Shown piece after piece: positions 8,284 to 16,419 of a DNA stretch of 20,206 bases. Origin of the DNA: a bacterium (GTDB lineage Bacteria > SM23-31 > JAUVVT01); NCBI GenBank assembly GCA_030616165.1, contig JAUWXV010000042.1:1-20206 (forward strand). Direction: 5' to 3'. Both the position numbers and the translations under genes were made by a program. Position 1 is the stretch's first letter; each line of letters begins with the position of its first letter. Under the pieces are notes generated by a model. The model did no database searches. It was not told the origin of the DNA and saw only the letters and a program-made list of their open reading frames with translations.

Positions 8284-8322
8284 CTTACTTTCTTTGTAAA
8301 GAAAGTAAGCAAAGAAACTTTA
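8284..8322. repeat. hairpin repeat, CTTTCTTTG/CAAAGAAAG family
   Basis: A perfect 12-bp-arm inverted repeat (CTTACTTTCTTT at 8284-8295, AAAGAAAGTAAG at 8298-8309, 2-nt loop) is followed by the family tail CAAAGAAACTTTAG. The same tail follows the copy at 14670-14710. It lies in the gap between the DUF362 and polyferredoxin genes, where a strong hairpin in the shared transcript could affect expression or stability of the second gene. Confidence 0.75.
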
Positions 8323-8338
8323 GGTTAGAAGTTTTTTG

Positions 8339-8362
8339 CCTACTTTTTTTCAAAAAAGTAGG
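8339..8362. repeat. second hairpin of the CTACTTT family
   Basis: CCTACTTTTTT (8339-8349) and AAAAAAGTAGG (8352-8362) are a perfect 11-bp inverted repeat with a 2-nt loop, beginning just past the DUF362 stop. On the minus strand the stem is followed by A-rich, not T-rich, sequence, so it does not have the form of an intrinsic terminator for DUF362. Confidence 0.7.
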
Positions 8363-13898: not shown

Positions 13899-14669
13899 AT
13901 GAAAATTAAGATTTTATTTATATTTTACTTATCATATAATATTTTATATTTTCACCCGGTTTATCCCCAGAATAATGAATATCCAATATTAAAAGAATTA
14001 ATAGATACACCTACAGCAGGTTCATTAAGAAAGGGGACTTTTGATGTTGGATTAAGGATGTATCCGGAGGGTGGGGTTTTGAGTGAAATGTCCATTGGAC
14101 TTATGAATAGAGTGATGGCGAGTGTTTATTATGGGGGCGAAAATTTTATAGGTGAGGGGGAGGTTAACTGGAATCCGCAGATTGGTTTTGAGATGCGAAT
14201 CAGGATTATTGAAGAGTCATTTGCATTTCCTGCTGTTTCTATTGGATTTAATTCCCAGGGATACGGAGGATATAGAAAAAGTCTTAAAAGGTATATGTAT
14301 AAATCAAAAGGATTTTATGCTGTTGTGAGCAGGAATTATTATCTTTTAGGTAATCTTGGATTACATGTAGGTGCTAACAAAAGCCTTGAAAAAGAGGATA
14401 AAGATAAAGACATCAATATCTTTATTGGATTTGATAAAGGTTTTCCCGGGGGTTTAGAACTGCTTGCTGAATATGATTTCGCTTTTAATGATAATGAAAA
14501 TGAAGATTTGTCGTTTGGAAAGGGAAATGGTTATTTGAATTCCGCTTTAAAATGGAGTGTTACTGGAGGTTTTAGCGTTACTTTTATTTTTAGAAATATT
14601 GCCAAGAATAAAAAATTCACATCAGGAGTAGGTAGAGAAATTAAAATTAGTTATGTAAGAAATTTTTAA
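13899..14669 (+). CDS. outer-membrane beta-barrel protein, YjbH-like
   Basis: A 256-residue exported protein. A signal peptide (MKIKILFIFYLSYNILYFHP, cleavage probably near VYPQ, residue 24) precedes a mature part made of short amphipathic strands rich in Gly and aromatic residues. Marks of the group are LIDTPTAGSLRKGTFDVGLR, MSIGLMNRVMASVYYGG, WNPQIGFEMR and FPAVSIGFNSQGYG, and the protein ends in ISYVRNF with a C-terminal Phe, as outer-membrane barrels do. I recognise this as resembling the small YjbH-like barrels of Gram-negative candidate phyla; YjbH proteins are linked to exopolysaccharide in other bacteria, but these short relatives have no proven role. It is the third gene of the HDAC operon. 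A four-hairpin array begins right at its stop codon. Confidence 0.82.
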   Translation: MKIKILFIFYLSYNILYFHPVYPQNNEYPILKELIDTPTAGSLRKGTFDVGLRMYPEGGVLSEMSIGLMNRVMASVYYGGENFIGEGEVNWNPQIGFEMRIRIIEESFAFPAVSIGFNSQGYGGYRKSLKRYMYKSKGFYAVVSRNYYLLGNLGLHVGANKSLEKEDKDKDINIFIGFDKGFPGGLELLAEYDFAFNDNENEDLSFGKGNGYLNSALKWSVTGGFSVTFIFRNIAKNKKFTSGVGREIKISYVRNF

Positions 14670-14818
14670 CCTACTTTCTTTGCAAAGAAAGTAGGCAAAG
14701 AAACTTTAGATCTATTCCTCATTCCTTGCTGTGCAAGGAATGAGGAATAAAAGTAAGTTTTCCCCCCGCTTAAAGCGGGGATCCTTCGGATTGCTTCTTC
14801 TTTTTCCAAAAGAAGAAG
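14670..14818. repeat. array of four consecutive hairpin repeats
   Basis: H1: a fully palindromic 26-mer, arms CCTACTTTCTTTG / CAAAGAAAGTAGG (14670-14695), with tail CAAAGAAACTTTAG. H2: 16-bp arms ATTCCTCATTCCTTGC (14714-14729) and its complement (14733-14748), 3-nt loop. H3: CCCCGCTT (14764-14771) / AAGCGGGG (14773-14780). H4: CTTCTTCTTTT (14794-14804) / AAAAGAAGAAG (14808-14818). Nearly all of the 149 bp is stem. It starts on the base after the barrel gene's stop and ends about 50 bp before the likely radical SAM start. It may act as a processing or partial-termination block between the two genes. Confidence 0.85.
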
Positions 14819-14856
14819 AGTTACTTTATAATAATATAAAAAATTATCAGTGGAAA

Positions 14857-14871
14857 GAGGAATTTGAACTG
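14857..14871 (+). promoter_or_regulatory. ribosome site fixing a CTG start
   Basis: GAGG at 14857-14860 with 8 nt to CTG (14869-14871) is the only good ribosome site near the start of the radical SAM gene. The next in-frame ATG, at 14926, would remove conserved residues and has no such site. Confidence 0.5.
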
Positions 14872-16317
14872 AGAGCACTTTTAATAAATCCGTGGATTTA
14901 TGACTTTTCTGCTTATGATTTATGGATGAAGCCGTTGGGGCTTCTGTATATAGGTGCAGTTTTAGAAGAGAATGGATTTGAGGTTTATCTAATTGATTGT
15001 CTTGACAGATACCATCCCGAAATTTTAAGAAAGATTGGAAGGGAACTTCTGAGGGGGGATAAAAAATATGGTTGTGGAAATTTTTATAAGGAGGAAATCG
15101 ATAAGCCTGAAAATTTGAAAAATGTTAAAAGAAGGTATTCAAGATATGGTCTTCCACCGGATATTTTTATTAAAGAGATAAAAAATGTGCCTGAACCTGA
15201 CGTTATTCTTGTGACATCTATGATGACATACTGGTATCCTGCACTTTATGATATAATAAAGATAATTCGTGAAGTTTATAAAAATATACCGATTATACTT
15301 GGTGGAGTTTATGTAACGCTCGCTTTTGAACATGCTGAAAAGTATCTAAACGTTAATAAAATAGTCAAAGGAGAAGGTGAAAATCAGATTGCGCCTGTTA
15401 TTTCAGAAATTTTAGGGAAAGCCAGAGATAATTATAAACATTATAATTCAATAGATGATTATCCCTTCCCATCGTTTCATCTTTTGAGAAATATAAGATA
15501 TCTTCCTGTATTGACTTCCCGGGGCTGTCCTTTCCGATGCACCTTCTGTGCTTCGAGGATTGTCAGCGGCAAATTCAGAACAAGAACTCCGGAATCCGTT
15601 ATAGATGAAATAAGGTTTCATCGAAAGAAATTTAATGTCTTGGACTTTGCTTTTTATGACGACGCACTTCTGGTTAATAAAGAGAAACATATTATCCCCA
15701 TACTTGAGGAATTGTTGAAAAATAAAATAAAGATTCGTTTTCATACTCCAAACGGTCTCTTCCCTTCAATGATAGATGATGAGTTTGCGAATTTGATGTA
15801 TAGGAGCGGTTTTAAAACTGTAAGATTAAGCCTTGAAACCGTTCATCCGGAGAGGTTAAAAGATATTAATTTTAAGGTTACTGTCGATGATTTTGAACGC
15901 TGTATAGAATCACTGGTAAAAGCAGGATATAAAAGAAAAGAATTAGAATCCTACATCCTTTATGGATTAACTGGTCAATCGGTAAGAGAAGTACTTGAAA
16001 CTATGGTATTTGCGGCAAAGAATGGCATAAAGGTGCGTCTTGCGGCATTTTCTCCAATTCCCGGAACAATTGAATGGGAAAGGGCGATTACTTCTGGAGA
16101 ATTATCCTCTGATGCAGACCTTCTTATTACCAATAAAACACTGCTCCCTTTAAGGTCGAAAGATTTTTCATTCTATGTCGTGAATGAATTAAAAAAGTTT
16201 GCCAATATTATAAACTATGCATCAGACCTTGAAATTAATATGTTCAGAGGAAGTAATATCTCAGAAATTCTTAAAAAGATATTCTCGACAAAAGAGGTGA
16301 AATTTATACATTTCTAA
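14869..16317 (+). CDS. B12-binding-type radical SAM protein
   Basis: Radical SAM enzyme with an N-terminal cobalamin-binding-like domain, 482 residues from the start chosen. RALLINPWIYDFSAYDLW and PLGLLYIGAVLEENGFEVYLIDC open the first domain, and GGVYVTLAFEHAEKYL and IVKGEGE close it. The cluster-binding CPFRCTFC (Cys220, 224, 227) starts the radical SAM barrel, followed by DFAFYDDALLVNK and RLSLETVHPERL. The open frame extends to a GTG at 14731, but those 46 codons fall mostly in the hairpin array and encode repeat sequence. GAGG (14857-14860) lies 8 nt before a CTG at 14869, exactly where homologous proteins begin (M-x-ALLINPW), so a CTG start is proposed. The reaction is unknown; relatives methylate or rearrange unactivated carbons. 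It follows the barrel gene on the same strand. Confidence 0.85.
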   Translation: MRALLINPWIYDFSAYDLWMKPLGLLYIGAVLEENGFEVYLIDCLDRYHPEILRKIGRELLRGDKKYGCGNFYKEEIDKPENLKNVKRRYSRYGLPPDIFIKEIKNVPEPDVILVTSMMTYWYPALYDIIKIIREVYKNIPIILGGVYVTLAFEHAEKYLNVNKIVKGEGENQIAPVISEILGKARDNYKHYNSIDDYPFPSFHLLRNIRYLPVLTSRGCPFRCTFCASRIVSGKFRTRTPESVIDEIRFHRKKFNVLDFAFYDDALLVNKEKHIIPILEELLKNKIKIRFHTPNGLFPSMIDDEFANLMYRSGFKTVRLSLETVHPERLKDINFKVTVDDFERCIESLVKAGYKRKELESYILYGLTGQSVREVLETMVFAAKNGIKVRLAAFSPIPGTIEWERAITSGELSSDADLLITNKTLLPLRSKDFSFYVVNELKKFANIINYASDLEINMFRGSNISEILKKIFSTKEVKFIHF

Positions 16318-16360
16318 TTCATTCCTAGTGCTCTGGATGAGTTAGAAACAAAAGACGGTA

Positions 16361-16419
16361 GGACAGACATTCTTGTCTGTCCACAATTCTTTGCTACTTT
16401 CTTTTTCAAAAGAAAGTAG
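16361..16419. repeat. pair of hairpin repeats between radical SAM and receptor genes
   Basis: First: GGACAGACA (16361-16369), loop TTCT, TGTCTGTCC (16374-16382), of the GGACA/TGTCC family. Second: CTACTTTCTTTT (16394-16405), 2-nt loop, AAAAGAAAGTAG (16408-16419), of the CTTTCTTT family. The two families found apart elsewhere sit side by side here, in a 161-bp gap between two plus-strand genes. Confidence 0.75.

Follow-up and report, generated by a model that had tools for sequence, protein, structure and literature searches.

The window, by which we mean the whole stretch of 20,206 nucleotides analysed here, contains an array of four perfect palindromes at positions 14670-14818, between an outer-membrane-barrel-like gene (13899-14669, plus strand) and a radical SAM gene (14869-16317, plus strand). 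The palindromes, designated A to D, have arms of 13, 17, 8 and 11 bp with loops of 0, 3, 1 and 3 nt and span 105 of the 149 bases; when the whole window was shuffled 100 times with dinucleotides preserved, a stretch of 150 bp never contained over two such palindromes, and palindromes covered at most 39 bases of any such stretch. The four packed hairpins reported in an earlier note on this DNA are thus borne out, as are the arms and loops given there (13, 16, 8 and 11, loops of 0-3), except that the arm of hairpin B is 17 rather than 16. All parts of the array are read on the plus strand. Hairpin A (14670-14695, arm 13, loop 0; CCTACTTTCTTTG/CAAAGAAAGTAGG) is the palindrome of the left terminal unit, and together with the left tail (14696-14712, CAAAGAAACTTTAGATC) it makes up a terminal repeat of about 46 bp. 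The central and variable hairpin B (14713-14749, arms of 17 bp, loop of 3) is followed by the inner part of the right tail (14750-14762, AAAGTAAGTTTTC), which is homologous, in inverted orientation, to the left tail and is able to pair with the GAAACTT of that tail, placing B on a shared stem. An optional module C (14763-14789) consists of a palindrome at 14764-14780 (CCCCGCTT/AAGCGGGG, arm 8, loop 1) and a TCC-TTC-GGA mini-hairpin, after which come the outer part of the right tail (14790-14793, ATTG, with TTGC sharing the first base of D) and hairpin D (14794-14818, arm 11, loop 3), the palindrome of the right terminal unit and an inverted homologue of A. The predicted RNA fold of 14665-14825 has an energy of -70.8 kcal/mol (z = -9.3 versus shuffles), and in this fold the tails pair and carry B on their stem, with A to one side and C and D to the other.

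The barrel-like gene retains its C-terminal Phe and ends with a TAA stopcodon at 14667-14669, directly before the element. Its ortholog (72%) in G002, a genome of the same family, likewise has F as its last residue and a TAA stop, with CCTACTTTCTTTG immediately after it. For the radical SAM gene the probable start is CTG 14869, preceded by GAGG, since the window and the G002 ortholog have ...CTGAGAGC in common after a purine-rich ribosome binding site; no in-frame ATG, GTG or TTG was seen between the array and this CTG, and the longer GTG open reading frame from 14731 arises mechanically, by extending the frame back through the array. Elsewhere in the window, a tandem near-10-bp repeat (ACAAATTGAG) is present at 141-204, near the 3' end of a lon-like gene.

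In the best copies, the reverse complement of the right tail and D is 79-81% identical to A and the left tail, and the alignment scores 26-28 versus at most 9 in shuffles. From this alignment the array is an inverted repeat with palindromic ends around a third palindrome, A and D being the two inverted ends of a single element. The earlier note had described the first hairpin as one of a family with three further occurrences in the window and the other hairpins as distinct; the terminal-unit model indeed matched at 8284-8329 (plus), 8320-8362 (minus) and 16387-16419 (minus), whereas the distinctness holds only in part, as D and its tail are the inverted homologue of A and its tail. The match at 8320-8362 is the D-like partner of that at 8284-8329, and together they form a second copy (8284-8362, plus strand) in which A and its tail are followed directly by the inverted tail and D, with no B. 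A third and decayed copy (16305-16419, minus strand) lies after the radical SAM gene and comprises a B-like remnant, a GGACAGACATTCTTGTCTGTCC palindrome and an A-like hairpin at 16394-16419. The order A-B-C-D recurs at several loci of the own genome (L002, L003, L006, L012 and L029), while many other copies are A-B or A-B-D, some carry two B hairpins, and many consist of A alone or of A plus B. Module C, which a subset of copies has, sits at one fixed place in the right tail. In some copies another hairpin takes the place of D at the right end, of the GACACCTTTTTTTCAAAAAAGGTGTC type in L004, L017 and L139 and of the TGCAACTTTTTTT...AAAAAGTTGCA type in L021 and L015, and given these alternatives the end units may be exchangeable.

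The earlier note had named a strictly single-copy array as what would count against its reading; that case is itself refuted, as a search of the own genome (G000) with the array returned at least 40 similar places. The A-tail pattern occurs at 63 sites on both strands of this genome (versus one for a reversed control), and a covariance model of the terminal unit gave 128 matches in G000, 82 in G002 and none in four other genomes of the class, although these counts exceed the number of elements, as the model matches the palindromic arms on both strands; in G000 the repeat occurs roughly a hundred times. Exact matches to a degenerate 34-base terminal-unit pattern were found in Oscillospiraceae, other Clostridia, Gemmiger and a Nitrospirae MAG, where the copy retains the layout of left unit, palindrome and right unit; copy numbers outside the family are low, at 1 to 11 per genome. 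Viral contigs, searched for a phage vector, gave no match, and the few matches in a plasmid search were mainly from Subdoligranulum. Nothing in Rfam scored above its gathering score (the best was nqrA-II, at 27.3 bits versus a cut-off of 55), and a literature search for several spellings of the sequence of the unit found no paper. As the 34-base pattern is common to this uncultured lineage, Oscillospiraceae and a Nitrospirae MAG, an undescribed short repeat has spread across phyla or been kept in them.

Nearly all of the sampled A-tail copies are intergenic, and the 70 copies for which both neighbouring genes were called lie between co-directional (60), convergent (8) or divergent (2) genes. 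Relative to transcription there are 34 sense and 26 antisense copies (p = 0.37). The upstream stopcodon of the sense-side copies is located exactly at the edge of hairpin A in 14/39, inside A in 9/39, across the junction in 2/39 and within 5 bases in 7/39, and a stop trinucleotide adjoins A in 18/34 sense versus 1/26 antisense copies (p = 5e-5). Beyond the family, seven copies from Oscillospiraceae, Clostridia and Gemmiger likewise begin exactly after a stopcodon. The sharp peak at zero favours some degree of targeting, but the placement may also reflect the survival of harmless insertions. That the TAA belongs to the element itself was considered and rejected, as copies read in other frames are mostly without TAA; it may be a mere sequence target. 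Some proteins are extended by reading into the element and have tails such as LLSLKRK. At locus L063, a Y1 transposase gene (1354-1881) has a MoxR-like ATPase gene on one side and on the other a DUF58-like gene, after which comes an A-B-C-D copy.

We compared orthologous gene junctions of G000 and G002, with protein identities of roughly 60-90%. The element is present in G000 and absent from G002 at the hisC-hisB junction, another his-operon junction and nuoJ-nuoK, and is conversely present in G002 and absent from G000, or there a mere remnant, at gpsA-asnS, 3' of asnS and at others. At the window locus both genomes have an element right after the conserved TAA of the barrel-like gene, with an entirely different B and a C-like module on the A side in G002; the window copy may have been inherited or gained twice. 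At one junction sampled in two genera (L012 and L259) the element orientations are opposite, which suggests repeated insertion at a single spot. From the presence or absence of copies, their different contents and their opposite orientation at orthologous junctions, the repeat is mobile or turned over, and the turnover is real. Empty junctions were found in the comparison of G000 with G002, their exact edges blurred by divergence (about 20-30% at the protein level), which is too high for reading a target-site duplication. The gpsA-asnS junction (L177 and L202) is also crowded with other repeat families (TGTCATTGCGAGGAG... and GTAGGGACAACCC...), next to a D-C remnant of the present element.

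Hairpin B differs in nearly every copy yet stays a near-perfect palindrome. In an alignment of 16 gap-free B hairpins 98.8% of the cells are paired, and the B pairs changed on both sides number 12/16 (45 cells, transversions included), with no G-U cells among them; hairpin A likewise has two G-U cells among 252. Compensation selected at the RNA level usually goes via G-U pairs, which arm-to-arm copying of DNA does not. The change of both arms without G-U intermediates points to maintenance of B at the DNA level, as judged from the copies rather than from a resolved tree. The B loops occur as TTC/GAA and TCT/AGA, and the A loops as both GA and its reverse complement TC, although the latter are few (6/89) and do not prove inversion. 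Inverted loops, perfect stems and several compensated changes at once have been described as marks of template switching (PMC8794818).

The features described above could also be read as a selected RNA element at operon junctions, i.e. an mRNA stabiliser, a processing site or a stopcodon-proximal translation attenuator comparable to the E. coli REPs near stopcodons, and the earlier note had likewise proposed a selected mRNA-processing block. Such a role would agree with the direct contact with stopcodons, the location of 60/70 copies between co-directional genes, the strong fold, and the lean of B mismatches on the transcribed strand towards G-U over A-C (17 to 8). This lean is weak, however, and a single decaying copy supplies four of the cells; with the unbiased orientation, orthologous operons which either have or lack the array, and covarying positions essentially without G-U pairs, we consider an RNA element improbable and the processing block unsupported. 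The hairpins must nevertheless occur in operon mRNA, probably as a side effect rather than as the reason for their existence, and an incidental effect on the mRNA is predicted as likely. A cluster of transcription terminators is barely credible: a scan did flag two weak terminator-like sites on the plus strand, but no stem is followed by a true T-run (the tails are only AGTTACTTTA and GATTGCTTCT), both orientations occur, and most copies lie between co-directional genes, often within one operon such as his or nuo.

Four unrelated repeats inserted successively at this spot would fit with C being an optional module and with the other repeat families crowding the same junctions; with the order and spacing recurring at other loci, and with D homologous to A, this is nonetheless highly improbable. 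The related suggestion in the earlier note, that repeats preferentially insert into one another, is right as to the repeats and to the insertion of modules (C, and the copies with double B), and not as to four independent insertions here, given the A-B-C-D order elsewhere. More can be said for a REPIN proper, in which a host RAYT (a Y1/HUH transposase) moves an inverted REP doublet, as the inverted conserved ends, variable hairpin spacer and common compensatory changes are those of the published architecture (PMC3116915), and G000 has seven Y1_Tnp matches. None of these seven is flanked by the repeat, however, and the sole full copy near a Y1 gene lies beyond the neighbouring gene. Y1_Tnp matches are also missing from G007, from G006, which has 11 A-tail copies, and from G002, which is 70% complete and has 82 model matches; this absence is weakened by genome incompleteness. 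The tag region is unconserved, with the foot of the stem covarying (CCTAC/GTAGG, CCCAC/GTGGG, GTTAC/GTAAC and so on). We regard mobilisation by a RAYT as unlikely.

In our view the array is probably a copy of a mobile DNA repeat which is REPIN-like and non-autonomous. The copies, with inverted terminal units around B and in a subset also C, are dispersed, differ in presence between relatives, and when in sense orientation usually lie directly 3' of a gene. We identified no cognate transposase for the repeat. A trans-acting enzyme would act on single-stranded DNA, where it would recognise the paired terminal hairpins; the same putative enzyme would copy the unit to a site just 3' of a stopcodon, in either orientation. 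Hairpin B would be rewritten as a whole, with one arm templating the other through template switching during replication or through conversion between copies, and such arm-templated rewriting would let B diverge while its near-perfect self-complementarity is kept. As numerous copies consist of A alone or of A with B, the unit that moves could be less than the full array. More tentatively, and in our estimate rather doubtful, the copies may belong to a cross-phylum family of miniature elements which inserts at stopcodons by means of a non-RAYT enzyme and has its central hairpin rewritten by templated DNA copying. If so, this family would be a natural record of palindrome-correcting replication errors. 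The tie of the repeat to stopcodons would explain how such repeats spread harmlessly in gene-dense genomes. The copies, in which double changes are many and G-U steps absent, also provide a data set for weighing DNA template switching against RNA selection as the keeper of palindromes.

MITE-like intergenic repeats such as RUP, BOX, ERIC and NEMIS are about 100-200 bp, non-coding and intergenic, with terminal inverted repeats, all of which the present repeat shares; in contrast to these, each of its terminal repeats is itself palindromic and no parent IS was found. In E. coli, REPs place a hairpin a few nucleotides downstream of stopcodons (PMC12306157), whereas the hairpin here often begins at the stopcodon or contains it, and the sequences are unrelated. 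The GTAG- and CGTC-tagged REPs are short palindromes which also occur as oppositely oriented dimers, and in some of these the spacer is structured (Di Nocera et al. 2013, PMC3733652); in these respects they resemble the present repeat, although no GTAG or CGTC tag is conserved at the end of the element, where the outer stem pair is CG, UA, GC or AU, and the stem foot varies with compensation. Template-switch upkeep of hairpins (Monttinen and Loytynoja 2022, PMC8794818) likewise produces several compensated changes simultaneously, with perfect stems and inverted loops, but was inferred for RNA genes along phylogenies, while here it would act across dispersed repeat copies viewed outside a resolved tree. 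In a REPIN (Bertels and Rainey 2011, PMC3116915), two REPs in inverted arrangement enclose a spacer which forms a hairpin and shows compensatory changes. The present repeat differs in having no RAYT adjoining its copies and no conserved GTAG-type tag, and also in its AT-rich ends, TTTCTTT/AAAGAAA core and optional module C, its tie to stopcodons and the presence of copies in several phyla. By analogy, and with no claim of membership, REPINs are nevertheless the closest kind and the one which this repeat would most resemble in how it works, as it shares with them two inverted, homologous and conserved ends, a hairpin spacer with compensatory changes, many dispersed extragenic copies, apparent mobility, and a unit longer than one REP.
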